The notes under the pieces are model-generated. The model was not told the DNA's origin. It ran no database searches and saw only the letters and a program-made list of their open reading frames with translations. The translations under genes and the position numbers were made by a program. This document shows, one piece after another, positions 12,739-61,567 of a stretch of 64,000 nt of DNA (its first letter is position 1; every line of letters begins with the position of its first letter). Origin of the DNA: Xanthostigma xanthostigma (taxonomy: Eukaryota > Arthropoda > Insecta > Raphidioptera > Raphidiidae); NCBI GenBank assembly GCA_963575645.1, contig OY754466.1, forward strand, positions 36,736,001-36,800,000, in the 5' to 3' direction.

Positions 12739-13310
12739 ATTATAGTATTTTTTACGGGTATGTGGACAAATTTAACACGTTAAATGATTGTAAATTTGCA
12801 ACGTTTCGTATTATTATTAATACATCTTCAGGCAACTTTACAGCTTTAACGATATGTCAAATAAACAATATTGACTGAAACTCATTTATTGTATAAATAA
12901 TTTGTTATATTGTAATAACTTGAAGGAAATTATCGCATCAGTTTACTGACAAATTAATACTTGAATTCATAAATCATAAAATTCCAAAATGATATCCCTT
13001 TGTTTTATATTAACACTTTTTATATTAAGTAGTGTTAATATAAAACAAAGGGATATTTTTTTGGAATTTTATGATTTATGAATTCAAGTATTAATTTATC
13101 AGTAAACTGATGCGATAATTTCCTTCAAGTTATTACAATATAACAAATTATTTATAGAATAAATGAGTTTCAGTCAATATTGTTTATTTGACATATCGTT
13201 GAAGCTGTAAAGTTGCCTGAAGATGTATTAATAAAAATACGAAACGTTGCAAATTTACAATCATTTAACGTGTTAAATTTGTCCACATACCCGTAAAAAA
13301 TACTATAATT
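12739..13310. mobile_element. 572-bp palindrome with hammerhead-like motif
   Basis: The two arms (12739-13015 and 13033-13310) are near-perfect complements, from 'attatagtattttttacggg' at the outer edge to 'atatccctttgttttata' at the centre. Each arm carries CTGAAGA-t-GTATT-loop-AATAC-GAAACG (minus strand 12802-12831; plus strand 13217-13246). The five-base stem is kept in both arms although loop bases differ. The motif matches the CUGANGA / stem II / GAAA order of hammerhead ribozymes, with one extra base after GA. No target duplication was found. Confidence 0.7.
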
Positions 13311-13631
13311 TAATATTTATAGGACGTTAATAATGAATAATCATTATTAATTATTTGTACAAACTAGTCAGTGTCGAATTTTTACAGGCTTTGACACTTT
13401 TGCCGTGTCATTACAACAGGTGCTACAACAGGTGCTCAGCCTAGCTAAGTTCTAAATATAGAGGATGGAGGTAAGGAGGATAATCTTATATGAGAGATAA
13501 ATTGAAAAAGTGTCCATCAAAATGCAGTAAATAACAGTTCAAAAATCGTCCGGAATGGCGCTAGCGCTGCATCCGTGTATAAAATGAATTTAGCAGTTGT
13601 TTACCCTCCATGACAGTTATAAACGAATTGA

Positions 13632-13668
13632 AATCACTGAAATATAAATATATAATATTTCAGTGATT
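13632..13668. repeat. Hairpin, 14-bp stem
   Basis: AATCACTGAAATAT and its exact complement ATATTTCAGTGATT flank a nine-base AT loop. Confidence 0.6.
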
Positions 13669-14454
13669 GAAATGCGTTGGAAAATGAGTTGGAAAATTTA
13701 GTATTTGTATCTCTGGTATTTGTAATGATTAGAGTCGCTTATAACACTGCTGTGAGAATTTTTTAATCATTTTAGTTTTTAGTATTATAAAACGTTTTAA
13801 AATAATAAAACAATAATAAGAAAAATTTGTGTTGTGAAAAGTTGCCCAAGTGGGCGTAAAATGAAAAATATTGTCTGAAGACACAAGTAATTCAAGAATT
13901 ACAAGGCGCGAATTTTACATAATATACCCCAACGTTATGTTCGAAAATTGATGTATATTTTTAACGACACTTTGAGCTTAATAATATAATTTAATTAACT
14001 TAATCTAATAAAAAAATAACAGTTGAAAGTATTGAAACACAGAAAGGAAAAAATCATTTTAATAATTTATTAATAATTAATTTAGGTTCATAAATATAAA
14101 AGCGTTAGCTATAAACTCTATGATCGTTTATTAGTCACAATCAATAATATAATTGTGACCCTAAATTATAAAAATTATATTTTCTTTTTGGTACATTTCA
14201 ATAAAAACTTTCTTTTTATTAGTATTTTATTTTTCTTGTTTTTATAGTCTTTCAAAATTTTAACTATTATGACATAAAATTATAAAAATTATTTGATTAT
14301 TTTATTCAAGATGGTTGAGAAGGAAAAGGTATTCCGTCATCTTGGGGCATCCGCCATATTGGATATATACATTGTCACCAGACTTGCATGTGTGTGAAAT
14401 TTCAAAGCTTTAGTTAATTTAATCTAGTCGAACAAATTGCAGCAATTAGATTAT
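13669..14454. other. AT-rich spacer, nothing recognised
   Basis: No repeat partner or coding signal was identified. Confidence 0.35.
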
Positions 14455-14844
14455 GGGGCCTTTCCAACTAATAAATTATAATATTGACATTTGACATATA
14501 ATAACGAAGAAAATAAAATTTCCGTTAACGCGTATAGTAACGCGTATAGTTACCACTAAACATTATAAAATTTGCTGTTCGTGTTCATGGTTTTCTATAT
14601 GTTATCACGTTATGATGTTAAAAATAAACAAAGAATGCTTGTCAAATACCTAACTAACATCTACGGAACAAACTAACATTAGATTTTTTTTATTTTCAAA
14701 ATATTTCTGAAACTAAGTACAAATTTAGAAAAACACATTTTTTCATGACTATCTTGTAAAAATATACAGGCTAATAAACTGTTATGACATGTAAGTATAT
14801 CATAATTATAAAAAAAACAACATTGAAAGGTAGGTACTTCTTTC

Positions 14845-15125
14845 TCTGTTGCGCATGCGCCGATTTTCCCGGAAAATAAATTACAAAACTTTCTTGTAAA
14901 ACATATAGAATAATAATCCGTTATGAAAAGTTTACTATTATTATATAAAAAACATCATAGCATATAATATCTTTTGCGCATGCGCCGATTATCCCCAAAA
15001 AAAATTACAAAAATTTCTAGTAAAATATGCAGAATAATAAGCCGTTATAAAAACTATATTATTATTTTATAAAACAACATTATAAAAGATATACTCTTTT
15101 GCGCATGCGCCGATGTTCCCCAAAA
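14845..15125 (+). repeat. Tandem 125-bp units with GCGCATGCGC
   Basis: GCGCATGCGC occurs at 14851-14860, 14976-14985 and 15101-15110, exactly 125 bp apart each time. It is followed by 'cgat-ttccc' and an AT-rich stretch including 'aataataagccgttat'. Two units spaced 124 bp apart occur in the minus-strand copy at 39649 and 39773. Confidence 0.8.
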
Positions 15126-15404
15126 ACAATAGATCACTTTATATTTGCATATCAAACATCCTCCCAAAATTTGGTTACAATCCGATCATCCGTTGTGTCG
15201 GAATGGTAAGAAATGTCAAAAATGACGTTTGCAACTGTCAAAGTAGGTATTATGTTCTAAATTAGTTATTCAAATTGTTAACTCAGAAGGCGTTGCATTT
15301 CACCAATATTTATAATGGCATTCGTTTTTGAACAAATGCAAACTTTTTATTTTAGTACACCAAGGCAATTTTAAATGAAAGGCTTGCCTTTTTTTAATAT
15401 TTAT

Positions 15405-15448
15405 TTATAATTAAAAAGATATTTATTTAATTAAATATCTTTTTAATT
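15405..15448. repeat. Hairpin, 18-bp AT stem
   Basis: TAATTAAAAAGATATTTA and its complement flank a short 'tttaat' loop inside the family E copy. Confidence 0.6.
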
Positions 15449-15945
15449 AGTCGGGCACAACGGGTTTTTTTGTTTTCAATAATTTATTAATGTTTTAATT
15501 TTAATTTAAATAGTTTTTTTTTATTTCCACCGACTAGTTTTGGAGAAATCAATGAAAACATATCATCCATCTACCGTTTTACCATAAAGCCAATGTTAAA
15601 TATGCCTACTTTTGAAGTCATTTATTTATATAAATAATCGGGCAACCCCCCCTAAAATTTTCAGAATTGGTTTAGACTTAGTCCAACTTAAAAAAAATCA
15701 ATCCTTTCTATTTCAAATTACCTTGGTGCTCGTATTTTAAATTGTCACGTTAAACCGTGCAACAATTAAATTGAATTCATTTCTATATAATTATGTATAA
15801 AATGAATTTATTTCTATATAAATCGGGATAAAAAAACTGTTTGGGCAAATTCTGTTACACGAAATATATGTTAAATGTTCTCCTCTTTCGTTTAAGACTG
15901 GTTTCAAACCGATCTGATTTAAATTGAGCGAGAAATAAGCAAAAA

Positions 15946-16629
15946 ACTTTTTTTTTCATAATTTTCTCCCCTCTGGGACAAAAATTCCAAAATCGGGCGA
16001 CGTTAGGATTTAAGTTACCCGGAGACGAATCGAACAAAAAAAAGTTTTTTAAAATCGGTTAAGGCGTTTGGGCTGTACGCGGGATACAAAAAGCGTGACT
16101 CACAGATTCACAGATTCACAGACAAAGCGAGTACATATAGGCGCTTTAGCTTACACTTTTTTGTTAATATAAATTTACAGACACCAGCAAAATTAGAAAA
16201 TTGGAAAATGTCTTTAGGCATACAATTGAAACAACCGATTAAATTTGTCACTTTCATAAATCTATTTATTAAAAACAAATTGTATAACTTATCTGACGTT
16301 TGTTCATATCGGTGTGTAATCGTTTATATCTTACTAAATGCATAATAGCACGTTTAAAAATGACATTTAAATCAAAAATTAATTTTATATCTTATTGTTT
16401 TTTTATTTTTTATGCTTTACTTTCGAAAATTCTTCTTTCTTCGTTTACTTTTCTATCCTACTCTAATCATTCCATTCTATGCTCCCTACGCTTGATTTAA
16501 AATATTCTCCATAATTTAACTCTTTTGCGACAGTGGTGGTCCCCTAATTTAACGCTTTTTGGCGGACACTTTTTCGTACACGGAGATGGTTCTCCTTAAC
16601 CTCTACCCTCCAATGTTCTAATTATCCCT
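15946..16629. other. Spacer with a possible LINE-like tail
   Basis: At 16040-16165, 'aaaatcggttaaggcgtttg', then 'gcgtgactcacagattcaca' and 'gacaaagcgagtacatatag' resemble the tail of RTE-type elements. Nothing else was recognised. Confidence 0.35.
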
Positions 16630-16830
16630 GCGATTTTAATAAAAAGTTAGAGTTTAAAAAAACTAAAAAAAATACTCATTTCTAACAATATGGGCCAAAA
16701 ATGAAAAAAAAATAGTTTTTAAATACAAAGATTTTTTTCAAAAGCGGTAGTACTTCCTATCGCTGTTGAACAAAATCTTCATTTTATTTTTCAGTTTTTA
16801 ATATATAAAAGTATTTTTTGAGATTTTTTA
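16630..16830. repeat. Family U fragment (foldback)
   Basis: The segment with 'atacaaagatttttttc', 'ctgttgaacaaaatcttc' and 'agtattttttgag' resembles the foldback at 52013-52203, including the inverted 'caaag-ttttt / gaacaaaatctt' arms around a short GC-richer centre. Confidence 0.4.
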
Positions 16831-17499
16831 CACTCCAATTTCAATTATAGGTAACCCTAAAAACCAACACTCAAATGACAATGCTTATATAAATTATTTA
16901 TATATTTATAAATATTTATACAAATTATTGTATTTTTATGGGTGCAAAATTTCAAATTATTCAGACGTCTGCAGATGGGTGAAAATTAAATTGAAAGCTA
17001 CCATTACCTACAAGTGAAGTTAATAAAAGAGTGTTGCTAGTACTTACTAACTTACTTTTCTATAAACAGGCAGTGCATACACATTACAGCACTTTATCCA
17101 TTCGATTAGAAGTAATGTCGTAATTACAGAGAAAATTCACGCCGTTTTCCACTTACGAATAATATGCAAATAAAGCATTTCTTGTTTCACTTCAATAACC
17201 TAAGTTCATATTTTATATTTCTGTCTAAATGTCAAGTCTAGAAAACAAACTATTTTTAACAATTATTTTATTTGTAATTTCGTGGATTAAATAATAACAA
17301 ACTTATCTATTTGCTTGTGGGTACTACTGGTACCAGATTATTGAACAAGCGCTTAGTAAACGTTAGCGTATACACGGACAGACCTACAGTAGGTAATTAG
17401 ATTAGATTTTCTTTACGCTTTTTTCTTACGTTTTTTTTACAGCCCTCTCCATTCAAATCTATAACGTCCCATAAGGAACTTCGTTCCATTAATAATACT
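16831..17499. other. AT-rich spacer, nothing recognised
   Basis: It holds no recognisable unit except 'caagtgaagttaataaaaga' (17011-17030), which recurs at about 61495. Confidence 0.35.
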
Positions 17500-18030
17500 T
17501 ATAATAATAATAATAATAAAAACTCGGGTCGCAGTGCGAAACCCTGCCGACAATATAGTGTATTTGCTTTTATAAGCAGTGCGTGGCTCTATTGTATGAA
17601 CTTAACTGTGTTTTTGGACAAAATGGAAAAAATTACCCCTTAATACACCCCTTAAACAACATTTTTTTACTTAATTTCAATACCATATACCAATTTAACA
17701 TCTGTACCAAATTATATACACCCTTCAGTATGTAAATCCATATCAATAAACTTGCGTTTTCATAAAATTTATAAGTCCGGTACTGTCGGTCCGATTTTAT
17801 TAAAATTTTAGCAGCACATTTCAATAATTACTAAAGGGTTAAATTTCAAATTTGAAGTGATTCTGAGAATTTTTTCCGTATTTTTGGGCCCAAAAACATT
17901 TTTCAACCCCTAAAAACCCCCCTTAAAATGGCCCGATCAGGCCCATTTTAAATAGGCTTCTTGCGATGATGGATTCCAACATGTGGACCAAATTTCGTTT
18001 AAATCGATTAAGTCTGTCGAGAGTTATCGT
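17500..18030 (-). repeat. Family N copy ending in a LINE-like tail
   Basis: It matches 7262-7865 in reverse: 'cgaaaccctgccgacaatat', 'aaatttataagtccggtact' and 'agcagcacatttcaataatt'. A short (TAA)n run lies at 17500-17520. The part after 17890 ('ccaaatttcgtttaaatcga', 'ttatcgtggtcacacat') looks like the end of an RTE/CR1-like element and runs directly into the AT microsatellite. Confidence 0.5.
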
Positions 18031-18033
18031 GGT

Positions 18034-18037
<4 letters not shown>

Positions 18038-18125
<88 letters not shown>

Positions 18126-18131
18126 TATATA
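18038..18131. repeat. (AT)n microsatellite
   Basis: About 94 bp of almost pure AT dinucleotides with rare interruptions. It sits directly after a LINE-like tail, which is a common origin for such arrays. Confidence 0.9.
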
Positions 18132-18132
18132 A

Positions 18133-18262
18133 ACATTTCCAAAAATGGTGCCAAACTTCTTAGAAACTTATGAAACGTCGAGAAATTTTGGTCCGACCCC
18201 TAGGTCCCGCCATCCGACCGACGCCAATAGTGTAAGTGCCTTATGGCAAATACACTAATGAT
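18133..18262 (-). repeat. Family T copy, minus strand
   Basis: 'gaaacgtcgagaaattttgg', 'ccctaggtcccgccatccga' and 'ccgacgccaatagtgtaagt' are the reverse complement of the segment at 5998-6125. Confidence 0.6.
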
Positions 18263-18562
18263 TAACGCGAAAATATTATTTTATAATCACAAAACTTCTA
18301 CAATTAAGGAAAACAATTAGGCGAAGGAACAGAGTTCTTTTATCTATATCTATATTAATACATAAAGCTGAAGAGTTTGTTTGTTTGTTTGAACGCGCTA
18401 ATCTCAGAAACTACTGGTTCGAATTGAAATTTTTTTTTTTGTTGGATAGCCCATTTATCGAGGAAGGCTATAGGCTATATAATATTACGCTACGGCCAAT
18501 TGGAGCGGAACATAAATGAAAAATGTTGCATGATGTATCTCAAAATTAGTCCGTCCGACAAA

Positions 18563-18931
18563 TATTATCAGGTGAAATGCCTTAACTAAATATTGCAATA
18601 TTAGCGCTTCAGGAATACAAGCCCGGATAGTTCAGTCGGTAGAGTGTAAGACTCTTAATGCCAGAATCTAGGGTTCAAGCCCCACGTCAGCGAATATATT
18701 GTTTTTCTTTTATTTTCTACATTGCTTTCTTCTAAGGTTTACATTTCAATTTTTTTAAATTTTATTACAACCAATTAAAATTAAATAAATCTAATTAATA
18801 GCTCATTTGAAAACTGTTACAACTATAAGCATCTATATAAAAATAATTTTCCTACAGTGTTTTCAATTAAATATATTTTATTATATTAAAAAAATTTATT
18901 ACTTAAAAAAAGTATAAATACTGCTTTTTAA
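18563..18931 (+). mobile_element. 369-bp insert with tRNA-Lys-like core
   Basis: The insert is bounded by a 7-bp duplication, cgacaaa (18556-18562 and 18932-18938). The uninterrupted site 'gtccgacaaaaacttttgaa' can be read on the minus strand in the sister element near 11070-11095. The tRNA-like part sits about 58 bp inside the left end, so this is not a canonical SINE with the tRNA at its 5' end. The rest is AT-rich. Confidence 0.65.
18621..18693 (+). pseudogene. tRNA-Lys(CTT)-like pseudogene
   Basis: GCCCGGATAG, 'ttcagtcggtagag', the anticodon region 'gactcttaat' (CTT) and the T-arm 'agggttcaagcccc' follow a eukaryotic tRNA-Lys. The 3' acceptor strand reads 'cgtcagcg' instead of the expected 'tccgggc', and the anticodon stem is broken, so charging is unlikely. 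Both internal promoter boxes look usable for RNA polymerase III. Confidence 0.7.
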
Positions 18932-19081
18932 CGACAAAAACTTTTGAACGGTAACGCCGATCATTATGAAGTTTGGACACAACATTCATCTCGGTAAACT
19001 AAGATGAATGTGCGTACTCATGTCCCTTCCTTCCCCATTCGTTCTTTTGCACCCGGGTGAAACCGGGCGGGACCGCTAGTT

Positions 19082-20470
19082 TAGATATAGAACTTAGAAA
19101 AAAAGATTTTTAACGTCCAAGGTAACTGATTAAAACTCTAATTTTTATATTTTTTGACAAACAATGTGTTTTAGAATATTTTTTTAAACTGATATTTTGT
19201 ACACAAAATGCTTATATTAACGAAAAAAACTAACTATGAATAATTGACACGCAACCGGACTTGTTAATAGAATGACATCTAAATGATAATGTAATAAAAT
19301 ATTCAAGGAATAAGATCATTTCAATGTGCTGGCTACGTAAGATTACTAATATAATTTTTTATGTAGTCAACGCTTATTCAATTCAAGTTATAAAGCTGGT
19401 GTCACAAAGGAGTGGCGATCCACTTCATAACATAATCGTATGGGCTATGTGCAAGAAGGCGGAGTTACAAATTTTTCGATGCGAGCGTTAATAATTTATA
19501 GCAGCTATCGTATTTGTGTGAATCATGTAGAATACGACCAATTATGATGAGATGACCTTTGCCAACAGTTCATCCCTTTTTTCTGTTCTTTCTCTTATTC
19601 ATATACGGATGAGTCGCGATTAAATTACAGGTCAAACTAGAAGCACGATTAATTATCGATTTTAAGTCGTCAAGTAATAATAATTACTGCAACATTCATA
19701 GAGGAAAGTCGGTGCCAAAAATTCAAATATTTTGTTTGAAGATGACAAGTGCAATATGTATTTGCGATGCCGGTATTTCCAATTGAAAAAGAACATTTTT
19801 ACTTGTCAGCAAAGGATGATTTAAACCCTCATATTTCAACTCCTCAAGCGACAGACATAAGTGGAGAAAATGTTTGAAAATTGTACTTTCAGCGGTTGGT
19901 AAAGACAGATGCTTATAAGAACTGATACAGTGGCTTTCTCTTTATACAATGCTGACTTCTGTGAAATCACGTATTTTCAAAATTTAGACATGATTGAATG
20001 TAAAGACTGACCTTAAAATATGCTCCCTTTTTTATAACACTTTATCGACCACCTTTAGAAACGTTTAAATTCTCCTTTTAAAAAAAAAAGTTAAAAAGAA
20101 ATATCTACAAATTTAATTTAGGAGTAGTTATATATTAAAAGATTTATATGCACAAAATTTTGAGAATCTAGTCGCTAAAATTATCTCTTCTTATTTTTTT
20201 ATGTAATATTTTGTCTCTACTACATTTTACGTTCATTATATTTTATCAAAAGGTTAAGTTGAAAAGCAGTTTTTTAAGTTGAACTTCGCCGTTTTAGTAA
20301 GTGTTTTTACTTATTACACACAGAAATTATTATTATTACTAATACTAGAGTGACCTGTGCAAATTATTCGCACTAAATAGGTATAATAATTATCACTTTA
20401 CAAAATTATTTTTTAAATATGATTGCAGGTATTCAATTCGTTTCTAATTTTGCACACTGCTTATAACGTT
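19082..20470. other. Spacer, nothing recognised
   Basis: About 1.4 kb with ordinary AT content, no repeat partner in the window and no coding signal seen. Confidence 0.35.
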
Positions 20471-20473
20471 CTT

Positions 20474-25417: not shown

Positions 25418-25717
25418 GGGACATTCATTAATTAAGGGAGCTAAAAATAAGAGGGAGGGATCCGGCAAAATCTTACCAGAACTCATTTAAAGGGAGGAGA
25501 GGGTGAATGCAAATTTTACATCAACTTTTTAATTCAGAGAATATACACTATTATAACAGACTAGCGGCCCTGTACGTGCTTCGCTACGTATAAAGTGAAA
25601 TAATAAAAAAATTTAATTGGAACATCTATCTATCTATCTATTTTATTAATTGCTAGCTATTTTAAAATATAAATGTGCGTATATGTGTGTATGTAAATAT
25701 ATATGACTGCATACGTC

Positions 25718-26585
25718 AATAAAAAAATAGCGTAAAGTATTCGTGGATAACTGGTCTTTAAAACACTTGCTCTATTTCGAGGGTTCACTCCGGCTGCGCC
25801 GTCGTGCTCGAAAAAAAATAGCGTAAAGTATTCGTGGATAACTGGTCTTTAAAACGCTTGCTCTATTTCGAAGGTTCACTCCGGCTTCGCCGTCGTGCTC
25901 GAAAAAAATAGCGTGAAGTATTCGTGGATAACTGGTCTTTAAAACACTTGCTCTATTTCGAGCACGACGGCGCACCCGGAGTGAACCTTCGAAATAGAGC
26001 AAGCGTTTTAAAGACCAGTTATCCACGAATACTTTACGCTATTTTTTTTCGAGCACGACGGCGCAGCCGGAGTGAACCCTCGAAATAGAGCAAGTGTTTT
26101 AAAGACCAGTTATCCACGAATACTTTACGCTATTTTTTTATTGACGTATGCAGTCATATATATTTCCATACACACATATACGCACATTTATATTTTATTA
26201 ATTGCTAGCTATTTTAAAATATATATGTGTGTATGGAAATATATATGACTGCATACGTCAATAAAATAATAGCGTAAAGTATTCGTGGATAACTGGTCTT
26301 TAAAACACTTGCTCTATTTCGAGGGTTCACTCCGGCTGCGCCGTCGTGCTCGAAAAAAAATAGCGTAAAGTATTCGTGGATAACTGGTCTTTAAAATACT
26401 TGCTCTATTTCGAGGGTTCACTCCGGCTGCGCCGTCGTGCTCGAAAAAAAATAGCGTAAAGTATTCGTAGATAACTGGTCTTTAAAACACTTGCTCTATC
26501 TCGAGGGTTCACTCCGGCTGCGCCGTCGTGCTCGAAAAAAAATAGCGTAAAGTATTCGTGGATAACTGGTCTTTAAAACACTTGC
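25718..26585. repeat. 87-bp tandem array with internal strand switch
   Basis: The unit is 'tagcgtaaagtattcgtgga', 'taactggtctttaaaacact', 'tgctctatttcgagggttca', 'ctccggctgcgccgtcgtgc' and 'tcgaaaaaaa'. Two and a half direct units (25724-25963) are followed by two inverted units (25964-26133). A mirrored copy of the leader (26134-26267) comes next, then four direct units (26268-26585). Units differ by only a few bases, so expansion and inversion are recent. The 84-residue minus-strand frame at 25772-26026 only reads through the units. Confidence 0.85.
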
Positions 26586-26879
26586 CGGTACTTGTAAAAC
26601 TGATTCGCCGTCATCTTGATCTATGATATTGCATCTTTCGCTTCAAATTTAGGTTAAAAATTTATTTATTAAATTTATTTATTAAAATTACTCACCTATA
26701 ATAATAATTGTTTTTAACTTTCTTTCAAATACGTATTTATTTTAAGTCTCACTTGGATAGTAACTAAAGATTAACCGTCATAATATTTTGAAAACAACAC
26801 TGTTTCATTGTTTGTATAAAATTCCAAAACCTACTTACAATATTTAAGTATTTACATACGTCAAAAAATTGATTTTTAA
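26586..26879. other. Spacer inside the Helentron-like element
   Basis: AT-rich, no unit recognised. Confidence 0.4.
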
Positions 26880-27755
26880 AAAATGCCACTTTCGTTGTAA
26901 TTTTATAACTCAAGAACGGACTCACCTATCCAAACCAAATTTTTAGGCTTTGTTCGGACTATTTAGTAGATGGTTTATGTGAAGTTTGCACAAAATCGAT
27001 CGAGCGGTTCTTCATTTATCACATTTTTTATATATCTTGGCATTGATTTTTATAGATATTTGTTACAAAAAATGTAATAAATGAAGAACCGCTCGATCGA
27101 TTTTGTGCAAACTTCACATAAACCATCTACTAAATAGTCCAAACAAAGCCTAAAAATTTGGCTTGGATAGGTAAGCCCGTTCTTGAGTTATAAAATTACA
27201 ACGAAAAGTGGCATCTATATGTATAAAAATCAAAATGCCACTTTTCGTTGTAATTTTATAACTCAAGAACGGGCTCACCTATCCAAACCAAATTTTTAGG
27301 CTTTGTTCGGACTATTTAGTAGATGGTTTATGTGAAGTTTGCACAAAATCGGTTGAGCGGTTCTTCATTTATCACATTTTTTGTAACAAATATCTATAAA
27401 AATCAATGCCACCTTTCGTTGTAATTTTATAACTCAAGAACGGGCCCACCTATCCAAACCAAATTTTTAGCCTTTGTTCGGACTATTTAGTAGATGGTTT
27501 ATGTGAAGTTTGCACAAAATCGGTCGAGCGGTTCTTCCTTTATCACATTTTTTATATATCTTGGCATTGATTTTTATAGATATTTGTTACAAAAAATGAG
27601 ATAAATGAAGAACCGCTCGATCGATTTTGTGCAAACTTCACATAAACCATCTACTAAATAGTCCGAACAAAGTCTCAAAATTTGGTTTGGATAGGTGAGC
27701 CCGTTCTTGAGTTATAAAATTACAACGAAAAGTGGCATTGATTTTTATATATATA
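26880..27755. repeat. Array of about 180-bp units in alternating orientation
   Basis: The unit runs from 'gccacttttcgttgtaattt' through 'ctcacctatccaaaccaaat', 'gactatttagtagatggttt' and 'cgagcggttcttcatttatc' to 'tgtaacaaatatctataaa'. Orientations are: direct 26884, inverted 27050, direct 27232, direct 27413, inverted 27580. Three further units, all inverted, lie at 45487-46022. Adjacent inverted units would form long hairpins. Confidence 0.85.
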
Positions 27756-30534: not shown

Positions 30535-31228
30535 AGGTCTCTACACACGTGGCTGATTTTTACGGATTCTTTGCTAGATTTGGCTGCTAGGTTTCAAGCA
30601 AACTGTGGCGCTAGGTTTCGTGATAACTTTTATGTGTGCGCTTCACACGATGCGTGTATTGAAGCTTGTTTTGTAGATGGATTTGGTGCGCACGCAGTGA
30701 CAGTTCGAAAACAAAAGTGAACGTTTATTGTCTCTGAACAGTACACACACTATGATGCCATGTTTGTTTATGGGCGTTTGTGCAAGTAGTCCACGTGACA
30801 AGATACTGTTTCCTGATTGGAATTCTTGCTCAAAACGAGAAGACAAACAAGTACGAAAAATAGCCCCGGTTCTAATTTAGAAATCCATCTTATAAAAAAT
30901 AGAATAGTTACTTCTTACCACAACAAGTTTATTACTGGATGTACATTTCGAGAGCTATGCTCTCATCTTCAGCAATACACTAAACTCTAGTGTATTGCTG
31001 AAGATGAGAGCATAGCTCTCGAAATGTACATCCACTAATAAACTTGTTGTGGTAAGAAGTAACTATTCTATTTTTTATTAGATTCAAACCACAGTGCTCC
31101 TAATATTTTTGTAAATCCATCTTGTGACACGCACGCGAGCCCGTAGTGACGTCATTTTCATCCTCGTAGCCAACGCAAGTCCCAGCAACGATTCCAGCGG
31201 AAAAACCAGGCTTGTGTTCAGCGGTCTT
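30535..31228 (+). mobile_element. Family A PIF-like MITE with nested palindrome
   Basis: The ends are AGGTCTCTACACACG (left) and, on the other strand, AGACCGCTGAACACAAG (right). TTA follows the right end (31229-31231) and TTG precedes the left, so the TWA duplication has one change. The interior is the standard family A body, interrupted at 30892 by a 221-bp palindromic insert with an 11-bp duplication. Uninterrupted versions of that spot are found in other family A copies near 10765 and 44390. Confidence 0.7.
30892..31112. mobile_element. Palindromic insert with hammerhead-like motif
   Basis: It is flanked by aaatccatctt at 30881-30891 and 31113-31123, an 11-bp target duplication. Its core is a near-perfect foldback from 'gttacttcttaccacaacaa' inward, meeting at 'aaactctag'. 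Each arm has CTGAAGA-t-GAGAG-cata-gCTCTC-GAAATG (minus 30944-30972, plus 30998-31026) with a full five-base stem. The right side adds about 35 bp not in the foldback. The motif and duplication length fit a non-autonomous Penelope-like retroelement. This is an inference; no reverse transcriptase is present. Confidence 0.7.
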
Positions 31229-40031: not shown

Positions 40032-41011
40032 TGTAACAAGATACCACTGGAGGCGACGGCGGTGCATTGTTGTAGGAGCCGCGTAGACAACAATGCTCGC
40101 ATTGTTGTCGAAACCGGACAGACAACAATACGCGCACTGTTATCGGAAACCGCGTAGAAGAATGCCGTTGCTTCGAGAATGTTCTAGAATGCAACTGAAG
40201 AACTATATAAGCGGTACAGTTAACAGTCACAAACGGAAGTCAGTCAACGAGTGATTTAAGACAGTTTTAGTGCGAAATAAATAAACAGTCAATACCGCAA
40301 ACAACTGTTGAGGTAACTGATAAAAATAAATAGTTATGCAAATCTTTGATTAACGTCTGATTAGAATTCTTCAATAAATAAAATTATCGACCAATTTTTC
40401 AGACAATATATTAACAAAAAAATATATAATTAATACCTACATTAACGTTTCAGTCCGGATTTGGATCTTCTTCAGAACTGATCTAAAAAATATAAAAAAT
40501 AATTAATATTTAAAATCTAATTAGCTTTTTATAAAATCTTTCAAAATAATTTTGAAAAATTTTATAAAAAAAATAATTATTATAATAATCAATAATAATA
40601 ATTATTAATGATTATCAAAATAATGAAAAAAAATAATAATTGAAACGTTAATGTATTAATTAGGTATATATTTTTTTGTTAATATATTGTCTGAAAAATT
40701 GGTCGATAATTTTATTTATTGATAAATAGTTATGACAATAATTACCAGTATAGTGTTGTTAGATCGAATATAGACATTGACTTTGTAAATAGATAATAAA
40801 TAAGCGTTCTATATAAATTTTGGTGTATTCCTGTGTTGTAAATGCATAGTAACTTAGTGTTGTCATTATTGCTTGGAATTCATTTGTTTTTCAGCTATTA
40901 ATTTTATTTCTTTTTTGCATTATTGTAGAGAAGTACTTTTTAGTTCGCTTTGTTAACATTTAGTTTTGTAAATAATAATTTTCAGCACTGGCAAAGAACA
41001 GTTTTGTTACA
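40032..41011 (+). mobile_element. Probable solo LTR with nested family D
   Basis: It begins TGTAACA and ends TGTTACA, a 7-bp inverted terminus. The 4-bp flanks are atat and atgt, one mismatch. A TATA-like 'ctatataagc' (about 40204) is followed by 'gtcagtcaacgag' and a polyadenylation word 'aataaa' (about 40277), as in Ty3/gypsy-type LTRs of insects. Without the nested 383-bp element and its duplication the LTR would be about 585 bp. No internal gag-pol or partner LTR exists in the window. Confidence 0.4.
40339..40721. mobile_element. Family D element inside the LTR
   Basis: It is flanked by ataaatagttatg on both sides (40326-40338 and 40722-40734), a 13-bp duplication. The left arm has the long end 'aatctttgattaacgtctga'; the right arm ends at 'ttttatttattg'. 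The minus strand at 40446-40475 reads CTGAAGAAGATCCAAATCCG then GACTGAAACG; the stem is partly broken compared with the 55 kb copy. Confidence 0.75.
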
Positions 41012-43387: not shown

Positions 43388-43583
43388 GATGTATAGTAGT
43401 TGAGGACTCCTCGTGGTTTATGGATCAAAATAAATGCAGTACAATTTGTTATTTTTGCTTATTTTTATCTTGAAGATGGAGTGAACTCTCGAAATGTAAG
43501 AAAATACAGCAAAAATAACAAACAGCACTGCTTTTATTTTGGCCCATAAGCTACACGAGGAGTCCTCAACCACTATACATCAT
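43388..43583. mobile_element. Foldback with weaker hammerhead-like motif
   Basis: The outer arms 'gatgtatagtagttgaggac' plus 'tcctcgtg' are mirrored at 43555-43583. Inner blocks 'gttatttttgctt' and 'aaaataacaaac' are also mirrored. The middle (43469-43496) reads cTTGAAGA, tg, GAG-tgaa-CTC, tc, GAAATG, a variant with a short stem. Confidence 0.5.
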
Positions 43584-43615
43584 AATTATAATATTTTAAA
43601 AGTTTACATAAAATT

Positions 43616-44015
43616 ACCGAGCGGGGTGTCGTAGTGGTGAGAGCACTAGACTCGCATTCGGGAGGCACCGGGTTCGTATCCCGGCGGGGGCAGATGTGGT
43701 TGGAGCTTTTTCCTACTGTTTTTCGCCATCTTTCGGCCATCTTGTTGAGGTTTTCCATGGTTTCCCTCAATAATTCCAGATAAATATCGAGATGGTTCCT
43801 TATTCAAGGCCATGGCCGATTACCTGTCAAACTCCTATGCTCAAAATTTGCCTACCTTAATCCAAATATCCTAAAATTCCTTCATTTGTCCTTTGGAAGT
43901 TGAAAAAAATGTAGAAAATAAAGTGTGATAGATGGCAAATATTAATGGTGCGAATGGCGTCTGTTATGACATGAAGTCGAGAAATGGACGTTAAACGCAT
44001 TATTATGGTTATTAT
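43616..44015 (+). mobile_element. tRNA-headed SINE with 19-bp target duplication
   Basis: The head (43621-43692) is tRNA-like: 'gtagtggtgagagc' (A box), 'gactcgcatt' (anticodon CGC, alanine type) and 'ccgggttcgtatcccgg' (T-arm/B box). The body carries 'ggttttccatggtttccctc', 'ccagataaatatcgagatgg', 'ttccttattcaaggccatgg' and 'ccgattacctgtc', the conserved central domain of a widespread arthropod SINE group (from memory). The tail reads 'gaaatggacgttaaacgc'. Flanks 'taaaagtttacataaaatt' (43597-43615) and 'taaaagtttacttaaaatt' (44016-44034) differ at one base. The 65-residue minus-strand frame over the head is not a gene. Confidence 0.85.
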
Positions 44016-53833: not shown

Positions 53834-53835
53834 TA

Positions 53836-54745: not shown

Positions 54746-54777
54746 ACATTTGCCGAAAAAAAAAAAAAATTTTTTTT

Positions 54778-54866
54778 CGGCGTGGAAAGGATTAGAACTC
54801 ACGACCCGTGATTCGGAGAGTTGACGTCAGCGAAGACCCGTGCCTTAGACCGCACGGCTAACCACT
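54778..54866 (-). pseudogene. tRNA-Leu-like sequence, right arm
   Basis: Reverse complement of 'gtggttagccgtgcggtcta', 'cttcgctgacgtcaactctc' and 'gtgagttctaatcctttcca', 'cgccg'. It is diverged from the left copy by scattered substitutions, mainly in the stems. Degenerate. Confidence 0.65.
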
Positions 54867-54965
54867 GTAGTTACAGTGCTGGCATATTATACTACAGTAA
54901 TAAACCACTTGCTGTAGTCCAAACGAAGGTTACAAACATACATATATAAAAACGTCTTTTTACGG

Positions 54966-55382
54966 CTTAATTACATAAACATCGAGATTTATCTGCTGTC
55001 TGTAAATTTAATTTGTATTTTATACACATAAATCTTCTGAAAGATATTCTCTAAATGGTGGTGAAAAACGCATCAACTGTGTTGCTTAGAATAATTAAGG
55101 GGCTAATTATAAGAAACGTTCGGTATAGAACGCCCGATGTAAGGCCTTTGTAAAAGGTTTTATAAGGGTACAAATAAATCTGATAGGTATATCTTCAAAA
55201 AATACAAAAACCTTTATCTGTTTTCCTCTATTAAGCTCTTCTGTTCGAAAGAGATTTACTGGAAACACTGTTTAATAATGAAGGGCTTAGGGCAAAAATG
55301 TACTCAAAATAAATATTTAACCTTATGTTGAATTTTAATTATCTGTAAGATCGCAATAATGATGATTATTTTTCAATATTAA
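54966..55382. other. Spacer, nothing recognised
   Basis: No repeat or coding signal was noticed. Confidence 0.35.
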
Positions 55383-56360
55383 TAAAAAATTCCTACCAGT
55401 TGGGCGACGGGACTATTTCAACTTCAAAATGTTGACATTTGATATAGTATAATAAAGAAAATAAAATTTCTGTAACCGCGTGAGATGACGCTGATAATTT
55501 CTAGTATTCAATATGATATTTCAATAAATAAAATTATCGACCAATTTTTCAGACAATATATTAACAAAATAAAATTAATACAATAACGTTTCGATCCCGA
55601 TTTGGATCTTCTTCAGATTGGATCTAAAAATATAAAAAATAATTAATATTTATTTAGTTTCTGTTTATTTTCAATGAAATTCTTCAAAGATTTTTTTAAT
55701 ATTGAAAATATTAAAAAAATCTTTGAAGAATTTCATTGAAAATAAACAGAAACTAAATAAATATTAATTATTTTTTATATTTTTAGATCCAATCTGAAGA
55801 AGATCCAAATCGGGATCGAAACGTTATTGTATTAATTTTATTTTGTTAATATATTGTCTGAAAAATTGGTCGATAATTTTATTTATTGAAGAGTTCTAAT
55901 CAGACGTTAATCAAAGATTTCAATATGATATTTGCTATTTGTTGCCATGGTTACCTACATAATATGTTCACGTCATGTAAAAATTAATCAAAATTTGCTA
56001 AACTAGCTTTGGCAGCAAGACATTATCTCCAGATATAAAATATTACTGTTAACGATACACTGTTTAATCGATGTTAGATTTTGTTAAGAAGTTCAGTAGT
56101 TCTCACAGATCTATAAAACAAAAGAACAGCTGATTTTTTTTTCAAAATATATTTGAAACTGTAAAGTTTAGAAACATTCTTGAAAAAATAAATAGAATAA
56201 TAAGCTGTTAAGAAAAGTATACCATTATTATACATATAAAAACAACGTTATAACATATATCTCTTCTGTGCATGCGCCGATTTTCCCCAAAAACAATAGA
56301 GTTTTTCATATTTGCGTATCAAACATCCTTCCAAAATTTGGTTTCAATCCACTCATCCGT
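55383..56360 (+). mobile_element. Family E copy interrupted by family D
   Basis: Left part 55383-55521 ('agttgggcgacgggactatt', 'gttgacatttgatatagtat', 'gtaaccgcgtgagatgac') and right part 55934-56360 ('cacgtcatgtaaaaattaat', GTGCATGCGC at 56268, 'aaacatccttccaaaatttg') flank a 397-bp family D element. It has a single GCATGC unit. Confidence 0.7.
55522..55918. mobile_element. Family D element, best-preserved palindrome
   Basis: It is flanked by the 15-bp duplication ttcaatatgatattt (55507-55521 and 55919-55933). The left arm starts 'caataaataaaattatcgac'; the right arm extends further, ending 'cagacgttaatcaaaga'. The arms pair over roughly 175 bp with almost no mismatch and meet in 'aatattgaaaatatt'. 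Each arm carries CTGAAGA-a-GATCC-aaatcg-GGATC-GAAACG (minus 55587-55616, plus 55794-55823) with a perfect five-base stem. Asymmetric ends (one arm longer) match the copies at 40339 and 61219. Confidence 0.85.
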
Positions 56361-57695
56361 TTGACCTGTATTGTGCTAACAGCAAACATACGCATAGCGT
56401 TTTTCCAAATATATGTTTTTTGGATTCAGAGAACCTCAAAACGAAAAGTTATTGTAAAGTTTTGAAAAGTTAATTTTAACCTAAACTGGGAATAGAAATC
56501 GTAATAATGCACATTAAATATATAGTTAGGTACTGATGTATAATATTAATAATTAATTATAATAAAGATTATTTATTTATTGAAAATCAATCAGTTAGTA
56601 TAGCTGTAAGCCGCACACTCTCAATTTACTCTGAAATAAATTGCCTTTGGACCATTTCTGCAATTGTTGCAATTGTAAGTTTGTGACATTAATATCAAAT
56701 TATTGTGTTTAGTATCAAATTGTCACATTAATTTTCTTGAAACCATACTTTCATCGCTCAATAGTTCACGGCTTGCCAATCAGGGTGTAGATGATTTTTA
56801 GCATTGGAACGAGAGTGCGTTTTGGTTTGAGAAGGTACCTTGAATATTTATACGGATACTTATGTGTGTCATAATAATATGACGGTGCGGGAGAAACAAT
56901 GTGCCGCGAGCCGAAAAATGTACAAGAAACGCTGAGCTATAATAATGACAAAAAGACTTGCGTAATTGAAGTATTCCACAAAACTTAAATGAGGACAAAA
57001 TAATTTAATTTCAGAACAAAATAAATTACATACTTGTCAACGAAATTGGTAGGTATATTCATGTTCATTTTAACAAAGCAAAAGTTTCTCGTAATTAGTC
57101 ATTAAAAACTTTTAAAAGTTTGTTAAATCAACTGGTTTCAAACTTAAGAAGGTAATCTAAGATTTCGTTTCTTTGTAAGTCAACATCAGAAGTGAACCGG
57201 CTGTTCAAATGCGAAATAATTCGATATTGTTATAATTTTGGAAATTTAAGTTTACTCGTTAATTAATTAACAATTTTATATCAACTTACGACTTTGTTAT
57301 GTTTGAATAGTGGCAAAATGTGTATTTCTTGTAACTATTAAAAAAAAGACGAATGTACTTTAGACCACACGACTGAAGTAAAACTTCTTCCTGCTATAAT
57401 TTGTTATTATTCACCCGAAAATTTACAAAATATGAACTTTAAAATGAATTTACAATTTTATTCACTTTAAACGTAGAATATTTAATGTATTGAACAAAAT
57501 ATTAATTTGTAAAATTGTTTAAGAACGAAATGAACAGTCTAATGTAAGAAGAAAGAAATATAAACATAAAGGTAATGAAACCAAAAGTAATACATTGCAA
57601 TTACTTAGCTCTCGTTGGATTTTAAGCGTAAATGATCTTTATGAAATATTATTTAGCTCTGCAAGTTAAGTAGGTTTACAAAACTTTTTTTGTCA
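56361..57695. other. AT-rich spacer, nothing recognised
   Basis: No repeat partner or coding domain was seen in about 1.3 kb. Confidence 0.35.
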
Positions 57696-57845
57696 TCCGA
57701 TAGCACCACTGGCAAGTAAAGTATGTGCCATTCTATTGTTAGTACTGCTTACATTTTCGGCCACCTGATGACGCCACTAGCCAGTGAAGTATTTGTTTCG
57801 ACCAACAGATTGCGCCACTAGCCAGTGAAGTATTTGTCAATGACA
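57696..57845 (+). repeat. Three imperfect repeats of 'gcgccactagccagtgaagt'
   Basis: 'gcaccactggcaagtaaagt', 'acgccactagccagtgaagt' and 'gcgccactagccagtgaagt' are about 50-70 bp apart, each followed by 'atttg' or 'atgtg'. Confidence 0.6.
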
Positions 57846-58024
57846 CTGTTCGCGTCAACTTCCGTTCGCCTCGCCCGATCACACTTTTCGTAAACGTTCT
57901 CGTCACGCATTCACCAGCTTACTCCCCAGGTCAAGCGTGCCTAAAAAAGTTTTACTTCAATTACGGGGTCGTTTATATTACGGTTCTGACGGACGGACCA
58001 ATCATTGACCGTCTCTCATCCAAT

Positions 58025-58195
58025 GGAATTGTCATAATATTACTGTCTTGCAATTTCACTGGGTAGGTCTAGTGGAATTATAATGTCACTGAAATGAGCC
58101 CGTGAAATTGTAAGAAATGGAGGCGATTGACACAAGTTTCGTGCAATTATAATTTCATTAGTGAAATTATAATATCACGGATTTGACAATATATC
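58025..58195. mobile_element. Possible small MITE of 'gtgaaattataat' repeats
   Basis: 'gaaattgt', 'ggaattataatgtcactga' and 'agtgaaattataatatcacg' appear in both orientations within 170 bp. No clean ends. Confidence 0.35.
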
Positions 58196-58930
58196 TGCAA
58201 CATATCTACAAATAATTAATTTGTGTTAGATAAGAAGTTTCACTTTTATCGAGTGTAAAGTGAACACGACATATTTAATTTTTTTATTTACAAATTTTCC
58301 GCGTCTCTATTATTTTGTTTTGCTGCTATTTCTAAGCACACTTTCTTATTTCAGATGTGAACAAATTGACTTGACAATATGTCATACAAAAGGGACAGTA
58401 AAATTCAATTTTCGTACATAATATATAGTTATACGAAACAGATAATAAAAGTTCTATTCTGAACCGAGAGATTGGTTCAGAAATCTGATCAAGTTCAATA
58501 TAAGTTCATCAAATAATAATTTATTTTCTGTTTCGATGCACGTTTTGCTCCGGAAAATATAACGGTTTCCGATTACAGTTTATTTTTGATTCAATATTTA
58601 TCTCTGTAGCTATAGAACGACTAATTTGCATGCATTTTTCTCTGATACACAGTTATACACTAAAATATACATTCCAATAAAGAATTTGTAATCGAAATTC
58701 GACCATAATTCAATGAATTTTTAAGTTTGAACGTTATTGGAGTTCTTTTGTTATTATATGAATTTCTCTTGAATCGATTTTACCTGTGTCAATTCGTACA
58801 AATCGTGATAAAACATATAATGTGCATTTCTCGTCACTGAAACGAAAAGAACGATGTATGTTGCATCACAACATGTGCGAATTAACATACTCAAATCGGT
58901 ACCATAGTCTTTTTTTCCTTCTCGTATTTA
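58196..58930. other. AT-rich spacer, nothing recognised
   Basis: No repeat or coding signal was noticed. Confidence 0.35.
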
Positions 58931-58934
58931 TAAT

Positions 58935-59065
58935 AGATACTACAATAATAAACCTGGAGTGTTTGTTTGTTAGAACTCGCTAATCTCCGGAAATACTAAA
59001 CCGATTCGAATTTATTTTGCATTATATAGTCCGTTTATTTAGAAAGGATCTATAGATCACAAAAC
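58935..59065 (+). mobile_element. Helentron-like 5' fragment
   Basis: 'tgtttgtttgttagaactcg', 'ctaatctccggaaatactaa' and 'atatagtccgtttatttaga' match the left end of 18342-19081. The sequence after 59065 is unrelated, so only the start is left. Confidence 0.5.
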
Positions 59066-59450
59066 TTCATACTAAGACCCTAAGGAGCGGCGGCGCGTTG
59101 AATCGAGGCCCGGTTATACTCACGGAGAGAACCGAACATTACCGAGAAGGGTCGAACCATGAATGCCCAGGTCAGAGACGTACCATGCCGTACGGCTCAG
59201 TATTGTGGTCGAATACTTATGCAACAATTGTGCTCCAGGGATCTAATTTTTGCGGACGTTTCTGGTTAATTTTATTGAATAATTCCTTAATTGGTAATCT
59301 ACAAGCCGGACCGGGACGCAATTTGGAATATATTAGCCATGATTAAGTACGCGGAATTTTGTTGTCAGTAGTTTTTTACTTATAACTAAAGAGTAGGATT
59401 TTGTATAGATTTCAATAGAACATTGTAAAATGAATAAATATAGTATAATT
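59066..59450. other. Unassigned stretch of even base composition
   Basis: Positions 59085-59340 are less AT-rich than the surroundings and open for 82 residues on the plus strand from 59098. I see no motif, and the codon content does not look like a known family. Confidence 0.3.
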
Positions 59451-59452
59451 AA

Positions 59453-59503
59453 TTACTAGACGCTACCCGCTGCTTCGTACGCGATTGAGATGAGACAATG
59501 TTA
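59453..59503 (+). mobile_element. RTE-like start, cut by a hAT insertion
   Basis: 'actagacgctacccgctgct' and 'acgcgattgagatgagacaa' resemble the start at 9903 ('actagctgatacccgcgg', 'gcgattgagatga'). The hAT-like MITE begins a few bases later. Confidence 0.45.
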
Positions 59504-59507
59504 TACC

Positions 59508-59801
59508 TAGTGTCCGACCGAAGGTCGATTTCTGGCCGAAGCCGAAGCCGAAATTGGCTACAACTGCTACAAGCTGCAATTAATAATATAAATGTTTTTA
59601 AAACTTTTAAATTGAATATAATATAAAAAGATACTTTTAATCATCTCTAGAACGCCACGTCCGTCGCGCTCTCGCTCATTCGTAACAGTTCGTTCAATTT
59701 CGGCGCTTGTTGAAAACCTTCGGCTTCGGCTAAAACTTCGGCCCATTTTGGCCGAAGCCAAAGGTCTCGCCGAAGGTGGCCGAAGCTTCGATCGGACACT
59801 A
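59508..59801. mobile_element. hAT-like MITE rich in GGCCGAAG
   Basis: Ends TAGTGTCCGACCG and, reversed, TAGTGTCCGATCG. Flanks gttatacc and cttatatc match at six of eight bases. Purine-rich words 'ggccgaagccgaag' and their complements sit near both ends, analogous in layout to 36464-36872. The 64-residue minus frame follows these repeats and is not a gene. Confidence 0.7.
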
Positions 59802-59867
59802 CTTATATCTTATTTCCACGGTAATTTTCTTTTGTTAGGATAATATGATTTTTCAATTTTATATATT

Positions 59868-60214
59868 ACTAGCGGCCCTGTACGTGCTTCGCTACGTATA
59901 AAGTGAAATAATAAAACAATTTAATTGGAACATCTATCTATCTATTTTATTTATTTTAAAATATACATGGACGTATATGTGTGTATGTCGAGCACTCCGG
60001 CTGCGCCGTCGTGCCCGGTGCAAAAGAACGAATGGGGAAGGAAGAAAAAAAATTTAGGGGTGGACTACCCCTAACATTTAGGGGGATGAAAAATAGATGT
60101 TGGCCGATTCTCATAGATACCGGATAAGCACAAAAAATTTCATCAAAATCGGTCAAGCCGTTTCGGAGGAGTATGGCAACGAAAACTGTGACACGAGAAT
60201 TTTATATATTAGAT
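59868..60214 (+). mobile_element. 'actagcggccctgtacg' element, 347 bp
   Basis: It shares the leader with 25560 and 44905 ('actagcggccctgtacgtgc', 'ttcgctacgtataaagtgaa'). It then has 'cactccggctgcgccgtcgt', an echo of the 87-bp unit, and a tail 'atgttggccgattctcatag', 'aaatcggtcaagccgtttcg', 'gagaattttatatattagat'. The tail is of RTE style, so this family mixes an RTE-like 3' end with a leader seen on Helentron-like composites. Confidence 0.6.
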
Positions 60215-60415
60215 TTTAGTGAGTTCTGAATAAGAATAAATGGTAGCTTATGAAAAAAATTAAGTGATCACAAAGACACCAAAGTTTTCAAGTTTCTACG
60301 TTTCATGATTTTAAAGAATATTGTATATGGTAAAAACCAAAACCATGCGAAGTCAAAAATTAAGTTAACACAAGGCGATAAAAAACGTGTGAGTTTCACT
60401 CATATAAGTTCACAG

Positions 60416-60545
60416 GAGAAGTGAAACTTCTTTAGAGTAACGAGCTCACGTCATCGATGCGTAATCAGTTTTGCGTTATCGATGTTTAACTTGTATTTTC
60501 CCGCCATTGAATCATTTCCCTTATAACGTTAAAGAAGTTTCACCT
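60416..60545. mobile_element. Small inverted-repeat element ('gtgaaacttcttta')
   Basis: 'aggagaagtgaaacttcttt' plus 'agagtaacg' at the left is mirrored by 'cgttaaagaagtttcacctc' at the right. Similar words occur at 6488 and 57383. Confidence 0.5.
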
Positions 60546-61204
60546 CAATAACATTTCTTTTAAAAATATTCGATCTACACGACAAATGAAATGTTTTAGC
60601 GACTTCGTTATGCGGAAGTTCGATTGATTTATAAAAATTTTAATTATAATAAAAAAAAAACACTGGAATTTACTTAGTTTGCATTCCAATGTTTTTTTGG
60701 GAATTAGCGCTCCCAGAAACCCGAGCTTGCACCAGTGGTTTGTGTATGCAGACTGGCAGGTTCTCTAATACACGCACAGACGCTGATGACGTCAGCTGTT
60801 GAGCGTTTATAATTTACAATCTCTCTCTCTTTTGGTTCTAAATTGAAGCGTAAAATTTTAAAAATATAATTATTATCTCCCACATTTTGCATGCTGATTT
60901 AAAACTAACATGAAATTTTTATACGTACCTCACATTATGATGATACATGTTTATTCACCATTCAAAGTTTGCACAGAATGTCCATTTTTTATGTTACATA
61001 GGTTGCTACATAAAAAAAAACAGCTAAGGCTAGGAAAACTGAAAAGCGAATATCGTTTACTCAAGTCCAAAATATATGTTTGAGAAACTTAACGGATTAA
61101 TTTATTGTGATGACCTCAGCTATCGAGCATCTATAAACTGCAATCAATCAATAAATCGGTTTTACAATAAGTTACGAGGCACGAGTCTAAAAAAATGAGT
61201 TGTG
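60546..61204. other. Spacer with a single CRE palindrome
   Basis: TGACGTCA occurs at 60787-60794 inside 'gctgatgacgtcagc'. No gene or repeat was recognised around it. Confidence 0.35.
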
Positions 61205-61218
61205 TGAAATACTATTTT

Positions 61219-61408
61219 CAAATAAATAAAATTATCAACCAATTTTTTCAGACTGTATATTAACAAAAAATTATAAAATTATAATTCAATATCTCAATAA
61301 ATGAATTACCTATAATTTTATATTTTTTTGTCAATATACAGTCTGAAAAAGTTGACCTTGATAATTTTATTTATTTGAAGATTTCTATTCAGACGTTAAT
61401 CTAAGATT
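61219..61408. mobile_element. Family D element, short form
   Basis: It is flanked by tgaaatactatttt at 61205-61218 and 61409-61422, an exact 14-bp duplication. The ends are the same as in longer copies ('aaataaataaaattatcaac' left; 'cagacgttaatctaagat' right). The central part with the CTGAAGA motif is deleted, leaving 190 bp. Confidence 0.8.
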
Positions 61409-61540
61409 TGAAATACTATTTTGTTGATATAGGTACATGGTATGCATAAAAAAATTGAAAGATTCCATTAAACATACATAGATGCATACATATAGGTGAA
61501 GTTAATAAAAAAGTAATAAAATATTTTCTCTCTCGACGAT

Positions 61541-61567
61541 CGTTTCGGACAATCAATCCATCTTCAG
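61541..61567 (-). other. Isolated hammerhead-like motif
   Basis: The minus strand reads CTGAAGA-t-GGA-ttgattg-TCC-GAAACG with a three-base stem. It sits in unassigned AT-rich sequence just downstream of the short family D copy; 'gaagttaataaaa' next to it recurs near 17015. Confidence 0.45.

Follow-up and report, generated by a model that had tools for sequence, protein, structure and literature searches.

Why does one short, hammerhead-like motif recur in palindromic repeats of differing sequence, and what are these repeats? The question is raised by a 64,000-nucleotide stretch of the Xanthostigma xanthostigma genome (contig OY754466.1, positions 36,736,001 to 36,800,000; hereafter the window, to whose numbering the family names 12739, 30892, 43388 and 61541 refer, a further family being called D). 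An initial annotation, made from the letters alone, had placed the motif in unrelated palindromes and had taken these for non-autonomous Penelope-like or retrozyme-like elements, each kept as head-to-head pairs. The reading that we favour, and consider probable, is that the motif belongs to the ends of Penelope-like elements (PLEs) and carries an extra nucleotide, that the palindromes are PLE insertions, and that they arise by two-strand copying. Motif class and insertion anatomy are both of known kinds.

All ten sites named in the annotation were located in the window (Table 1). Seven pass a strict test that calls for [CT]TGAAGA, one base, a stem of at least 4 bp and then GAAA[CT]G, and in all seven the stem begins one base past CTGAAGA; the weaker copies at 2482-2510, 40446-40475 and 43470-43496 fail it. 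Over 200 dinucleotide-preserving shuffles of the window the mean was 0.02 strict sites, with zero in 197 of them. The 61541 copy stands single in the window, and its family is also paired head-to-head elsewhere in the genome.

Table 1. Hammerhead-like motifs and PLE insertions in the window
Feature	Position	Strand	Remarks
Hammerhead-like motif, D right arm	55794-55823	+	stem I CAAT/ATTG; extra A; stem II GATCC/GGATC; GAAACGTT
Hammerhead-like motif, D left arm	55587-55616	-	passes strict test
12739 right-arm motif	13217-13246	+	stem I TTGC/GCAA; extra T; stem II GTATT/AATAC
12739 left-arm motif	12802-12831	-	passes strict test
30892 right-arm motif	30998-31026	+	extra T; stem II GAGAG/CTCTC; 8-nt palindromic stem III segment ATGTACAT
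30892 left-arm motif	30944-30972	-	passes strict test
D motif, stem II mismatched	40446-40475	-	
D motif, stem II degraded	2482-2510	-	
Motif nearest the textbook hammerhead	61541-61567	-	stem I CTC/GAG; stem III segment ACGATCGT; extra T; cut-site triplet GTC
Repeat unit containing the 61541 motif	61518-61638	-	multi-copy family; other copies in head-to-head pairs
Weak motif in the 43388 foldback	43470-43496	+	TTGAAGA; imperfect stem; near foldback centre; left arm of the foldback ends close to it
D-family PLE insertion	55507-55931		13-bp target-site duplication (55507-55519, 55919-55931); identical 184-nt arms 55520-55703 and 55707-55890, head-to-head; ~28-nt tail on right arm only
12739 head-to-head palindrome	12733-13351		arms 12738-13022 and 13026-13310 (97%); extended on the right by ~33 nt; target-site duplication weak, 8 bp, TTATTAAT (12733, 13344)
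PLE_B-family insertion (30892)	30881-31123		11-bp target-site duplication AAATCCATCTT (30881-30891, 31113-31123); arms 30887-30982 and 30988-31083; ~30-nt tail on right arm only; donor sequence in L066
D-family insertion	40326-40734		13-bp target-site duplication (40326-40338, 40722-40734); tail on left arm only
D-family insertion	2401-2696		14-bp target-site duplication (2401-2414, 2683-2696); left arm long, tailless; right arm short, tailed
Short D-family head-to-head pair	61205-61422		duplication TGAAATACTATTTT (61205, 61409); tail on right arm; both arms span only sequence 3' of the motif (BLAST); absent from the initial annotation

We compared eleven families, picked by hand, together with their flanks. 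With positions numbered as in PMC3088659, the hammerhead core C3 U4 G5 A6 N7 G8 A9 and G12 A13 A14 is present. Stem II, when started one base after A9, is paired in 44/44 cells, as against 15/44 at offset 0, 19/44 at offset 2 and 13/44 at offset 3. Stem I, in which the last four bases ahead of the core face the first four beyond the predicted cut and which is absent from the initial annotation, is paired in 39/44 cells, its register having been set beforehand by the hammerhead model in eight families (30/32 pairs); sliding that register by 1-3 leaves 12-22 of 44 cells paired. Neither stem value was reached in 20,000 partner permutations, which rose no higher than 37 and 33. Pairs 1-4 of stem I and 2-4 of stem II each occur in all four Watson-Crick forms, and pair 1 of stem II is G-C in all 11 families. 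The covariation of both stems thus bears out the annotation's proposal that the stems differ while the structure is conserved. From A15.1 through U16.1 the sequence forms a perfect palindrome in 11/11 families (ACGT in eight; ATGTACAT, ACGATCGT and ACTAGT in the others), with the caveat that stem III length was chosen to fit in three (30998, 61567 and L043); such self-complementarity is what one would expect of a stem III made by two RNA copies together. The A15.1-U16.1 pair and H17 before the cut are also kept across the 11 families, in the forms ACGTT, ATGTACATC, ACGATCGTC and ACTAGTT. In computed folding, D and 12739 monomers form stems I and II around an unpaired core, those of 30998 and 61567 give somewhat different folds, and the 61567 dimer has an intermolecular helix at the palindrome. 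Judged by these sequences, the motif fits a minimal PLE hammerhead plus one extra nucleotide.

The extra nucleotide is the prevailing form genome-wide. In the window's own 623 Mb assembly, the extra-base pattern CTGAAGANGN{10,20}CGAAACGT has 12,687 exact matches (6,359 + 6,328) and its reverse has 0. Dropping the extra base leaves a pattern, CTGAAGAGN{10,20}CGAAACGT, with 164 matches (80 + 84; reversed control 1 + 0), the two counts overlapping slightly because the first pattern also allows G at the extra position. Among the first 50 of 100 places listed from those 164, an extra G pairs better in 27, no extra base in 8, the two tie in 5 and neither pairs in 10. The core is constant and the stems vary among the 100 extra-base places listed (GATCC/GGATC, AAAAT/ATTTT, GATAC/GTATC, GCTA/TAGC, GTTG/CAAC, GGCA/TGCC and others). 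Similar CTGATGAAG...CGAAACG repeats occur in vertebrate genomes. A search of 2.9 million viral contigs with the linear pattern gave 20 matches, none of which has a 4-bp stem at offset 1, and hence no relatives were seen among viral contigs. Low-threshold Rfam searches of five extra-base loci gave no hammerhead among the rows listed; they returned many microRNA matches at the five palindromic loci and at L031, which we read as long-hairpin artefacts. L031 (contig C1) lies elsewhere in this genome and holds canonical-type hammerheads at 195-241 (-) and ~486-531 (+) in a retrozyme-like repeat; they score 35.7 bits, above gathering, and 33.6 bits, and the second lacks the extra base, its stem II adjoining A9.

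A genome search for the GIY-YIG endonuclease domain gave 149 matches from 150 of 521 candidates scored, many of them in -,+ pairs, and included a tandem array (L063) with a spacing of ~3,042 bp. In 30 loci fetched by GIY-YIG alone, ignoring the motif and not all independent, the motif follows the endonuclease downstream on its own strand in 22, at 233-591 bp past the first in-frame stop. It was present in 7/20 larger regions, several of which end before the pseudo-long terminal repeat (pseudo-LTR). In the tandem copies of L063 and L066 the motif also stands ~30 bp ahead of the next open frame. Pfam identified both RVT_1 and GIY-YIG in two of three long open reading frames (ORFs) examined, those of L066 and L068; the third, that of L063, has GIY-YIG just under the cut-off (21.8 bits against 22.6) and no RVT_1, and a PDB sequence search with it gave no match. 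As side observations on L063, the ATG of its motif is in frame with the main ORF, with one stop codon between, and an intron-like GTAAGT...ATAG stretch lies directly upstream of the motif.

Three families of the window can be tied to such coding sequence. L066, a PLE with an 804-codon open frame, carries in its pseudo-LTR a motif identical, flanks included, to that at 30998, as do many other loci; it thereby supplies the reverse transcriptase (RT) that the annotation had suggested looking for behind these ends. In L005 and L006 an endonuclease region (tblastn to PLE_A, 1e-12 and 5e-18) precedes the D motif by ~190-200 bp, and in L117 the 12739 pseudo-LTR, its motif slightly changed, lies 3' of a GIY-YIG domain. 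The linked ORF is thus RT plus GIY-YIG for 30892, and GIY-YIG only for D and 12739. No ORF was found with the 61541 repeat unit. Tandem copies with pseudo-LTRs (L063), inverted truncated copies, a tail and target-site duplications, all of them Penelope-like traits, are present. The link to PLEs that the annotation had drawn is therefore upheld by GIY-YIG ORFs with the motif downstream. Its terms non-autonomous and retrozyme-like do not suit D, 12739 and 30892: since these families lie directly 3' of GIY-YIG coding sequence, we take the palindromes for 5'-truncated copies of autonomous elements and not for retrozymes, and in these three families they are short PLE insertions. Nor are these palindromes unrelated, as had been supposed; their sequence families do differ, but D, 12739 and 30892 are ends of the same element class.

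These insertions share a common plan. Among the first 100 places listed, neighbours less than 2 kb apart are arranged -,+ in 19 of 21 cases and +,+ in two, and none is +,-. We examined 30 head-to-head pairs of family D, a set that retains L095 and L097 in the denominator and excludes L099, which is not head-to-head, and L101/L102, which belong to another family. In 28 of the 30, a direct repeat of 8-15 bp stands at the outer ends and exactly one arm is tailed, the tail being ~30 nt long and on the right arm in 17 and the left in 11. The target-site duplication is at least 10 bp in 24 of these and at least 12 bp in 21; a match of at least 8 bp occurs in 74/870 mismatched flank pairs, so single short repeats are weak evidence. 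Were arms tailed independently at the observed 50%, the chance of 28/28 one-tailed pairs would be ~4e-9. L095 has a single tail and no clear direct repeat. The same one-tail plan was read by eye at 30892, 12739, L110, L111 and L113, and less clearly at L114. Six pairs are clearly unequal, by BLAST extents and by reading the sequence, and five of them have their tail on the shorter arm (L098; L100; L024, a composite insertion; L115/L116, known without its middle sequence; and window 2401-2696), the sixth on the longer (L096). L105, unequal by BLAST with arms about equal on reading, and L106, moderately unequal with its tail on the longer arm, were left out. The idea that two paired arms are in every case most closely related to each other drew no clear support, as the partner arm is the nearest relative for 20/40 arms, with ties broken by order.

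The arms also bear on the state of the RNA that was copied. The whole motif is kept in the D arms of most pairs. The idea that hammerhead cleavage sets the 5' ends of D arms found no support, as their approximate extents do not pile up at the predicted cut, +32 from the first C; the ends nearest to it are those of the L097 left arm (+34), window 61221 (+39/+48) and the 40373 right arm (+22). The intact motif and the lack of a pile-up argue that the copied D RNA was probably uncut, as in the anole PLE discussed below. Both 12739 arms lack the 69-nt GT...AG insert of L117, and several other copies have a ~67-nt gap at its position, which supports a sense, spliced RNA as template.

We therefore have in mind the following route, which would account for this anatomy. 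A sense RNA with its 5' end in the pseudo-LTR would act as template, and reverse transcription would be primed on each of the two strands cut at a single target. One complementary DNA (cDNA) would start at each of two RNA sites ~30 nt apart, leaving one arm tailed and the other tailless, and the two cDNAs would meet head-to-head and be joined within a target-site duplication of 8-15 bp. The motif would be uncut in the RNA that is copied; cleavage, if any, would take place in a dimer or in the presence of the protein that the element encodes, and would probably split tandem transcripts. A bolder version, plausible to us though put forward only tentatively, is that each insertion takes two copies with obligatorily different start sites ~30 nt apart, in a coupled asymmetric dimer reaction on uncut RNA whose hammerhead is inactive, or dimeric, through the extra nucleotide. 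If true, such a reaction would explain both the head-to-head palindromes and the one-tail rule.

Several results weigh against our reading. The families in the structure comparison were hand-picked, with stem III lengths fitted as noted, and an extra A or T between A9 and stem II in 11/11 of them breaks a rule of hammerheads, in which stem II follows directly on A9. An Rfam search of the window at gathering score gave no match, and the 61541 copy (61532-61570) scores 14.4 bits against Hammerhead_1, whose gathering score is 34; the covariation and the linked PLE whose absence would have counted against the annotation were both found, but the Rfam hammerhead models stay below threshold in the window. 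Eight of the 30 GIY-YIG loci have no motif within ~1.5 kb, the motif was not seen in 13/20 larger regions, several of them ending before the pseudo-LTR, and the 43388 and 61541 copies were not tied to an ORF. An intronless source copy would equally explain the insert missing from the 12739 arms. Finally, L097 carries a second tail and lies between inverted flanks, and in L112 (of the L110 family) the flanks are inverted over at least 250 bp at 94%; both are fold-back-like, and from them there may be more than one route to palindromes. The inverted host flanks of these two loci could come from fold-back or from a later inverted duplication.

Fold-back is a rival to copying from both strands. 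A single strand, either cDNA or antisense RNA as proposed for bdelloid PLEs (PMC3846280), would prime on itself and copy itself; the often nearly identical arms of a pair, the near-perfect hairpins at several palindrome centres, and L097 and L112 are all what this would produce. In such a reaction, however, the copied arm holds nothing that its template arm lacks, so a shorter tailed arm was not copied from a longer tailless one, and this is the arrangement in the five unequal pairs named above. The tails on shorter arms speak instead for two separate reverse transcriptions, and 28/30 pairs are one-tailed inside direct target-site duplications. We consider self-priming unlikely as the origin of the palindromes.

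What the motif does is a separate matter. On sequence grounds we read it as a dimeric or protein-assisted ribozyme that would split tandem transcripts, the main alternative being a purely structural role. On that alternative the motif is a structural signal, a protein-binding hairpin or start-codon context, with the hammerhead core kept from an ancestor. It would suit the retention of the extra base (12,687 matches against 164), the 27 places listed without it that pair better with an extra G, the evidently uncut state of the copied RNA, and the independence of anole PLE insertion from cleavage in vitro (PMC11167929). We nevertheless find it rather doubtful, given that the motif retains C3-A9, G12-A14, the A15.1-U16.1 pair, H17 and stem I and that the anole hammerhead does cleave in the presence of its protein, as described in the same source. 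Far less probable is that the palindromes are non-autonomous retrozymes, which are small, have canonical hammerheads and spread as RNA circles released by self-cleavage. The palindromes are likewise small and numerous and have the hammerhead core, and canonical-type hammerheads do exist in this genome (L031), but the units keep the whole motif, do not end at the predicted cleavage site, lie head-to-head with tail and target-site duplications, and in three families adjoin GIY-YIG coding sequence; canonical hammerheads bounding a small tandem unit with no coding link were not found in the palindromes. As for chance resemblance in AT-rich palindromes, the want of an above-threshold Rfam match in the window is what such an origin would give, and the counts refute it, with seven strict sites against 0.02 expected, 12,687 genome matches against 0 reversed, and no 4-bp stem at the right offset in any of the 20 viral contigs that match a similar linear pattern.

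The window holds other features besides. Positions 43610-43790 resemble the head of what we take to be a tRNA-derived short interspersed element; ARAGORN found no tRNA in the window. A 271-codon open frame at 50582-51397 matches zf-RVT weakly (15.8 bits against a cut-off of 27.5) and is possibly a fragment of a non-LTR retrotransposon. A dense nest of inverted repeats, with arms of 93-242 nt in several combinations, occupies 25663-27755.

A literature search, which did not extend to the primary papers on PLE hammerheads, turned up no mention of an invariable extra nucleotide, of a one-tail rule backed by counts or of tails borne by the shorter arm; the first of these may have been published before. 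How inverted PLE copies form is left open in PMC3846280, where antisense fold-back is preferred. The one-tail rule and the short-arm tails are simple to count, speak for priming on both strands and can be tested in the existing anole system. With ~12,700 matches of an extra-base hammerhead that is sub-threshold in Rfam models, such elements may be undercounted, and the conservation of the extra base raises the question of its role.

Compared with known systems, the motif comes closest to the minimal hammerheads of PLEs, described as type I, without helix III, located in pseudo-LTRs, possibly cleaving as dimers, and of unknown role (PMC7761336, PMC6155905). Shared with these (Cervera and de la Pena 2014; Lunse et al. 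2017, via the same reviews) are the pseudo-LTR position, the CUGANGA/GAAA core, a missing or minimal helix III, thousands of copies, and a self-complementary stem III that fits dimer cleavage; the difference would be the one nucleotide here between A9 and stem II. No insertion at that place was seen in the passages of PMC3088659 on core insertions, where one after A6 had low activity, one in GAAA is expected to be accommodated and those beside C3 impaired cleavage. Animal retrozymes (PMC7229834) also have a hammerhead core in a small repeat, but differ from the palindromes in their canonical hammerhead, tandem arrangement and circular RNA; L031 and L032 of this genome do resemble them.

In insertion anatomy, the Penelopes of the bdelloid Adineta vaga (PMC3846280) are alike in having inverted pseudo-LTRs, mostly head-to-head, with duplications of 9-10 bp and, at one, an optional 31-bp tail. 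Unlike them, short palindromes without an ORF are abundant here, and the fold-back self-priming on an antisense template that is preferred there for the head-to-head form misfits the short-arm tails. A further parallel is Poseidon of Anolis carolinensis, which by the account in PMC11167929 likewise has an ORF with RT and GIY-YIG, a hammerhead at the junction of pseudo-LTR and ORF, and a tail bounded by two sites. Its enzyme cuts and extends both strands, two adjacent RNA start sites bound the tail, and its hammerhead cleaves only with protein. The start site is independent of the strand in vitro, which fits the tails on either side here. The Poseidon cut site lies 26 bp after the start codon, as compared with 22-29 nt from the A9 of A9-T-G in eight T-type families here; the coupling of one tail to each single insertion, seen here, is not described for Poseidon in that account.

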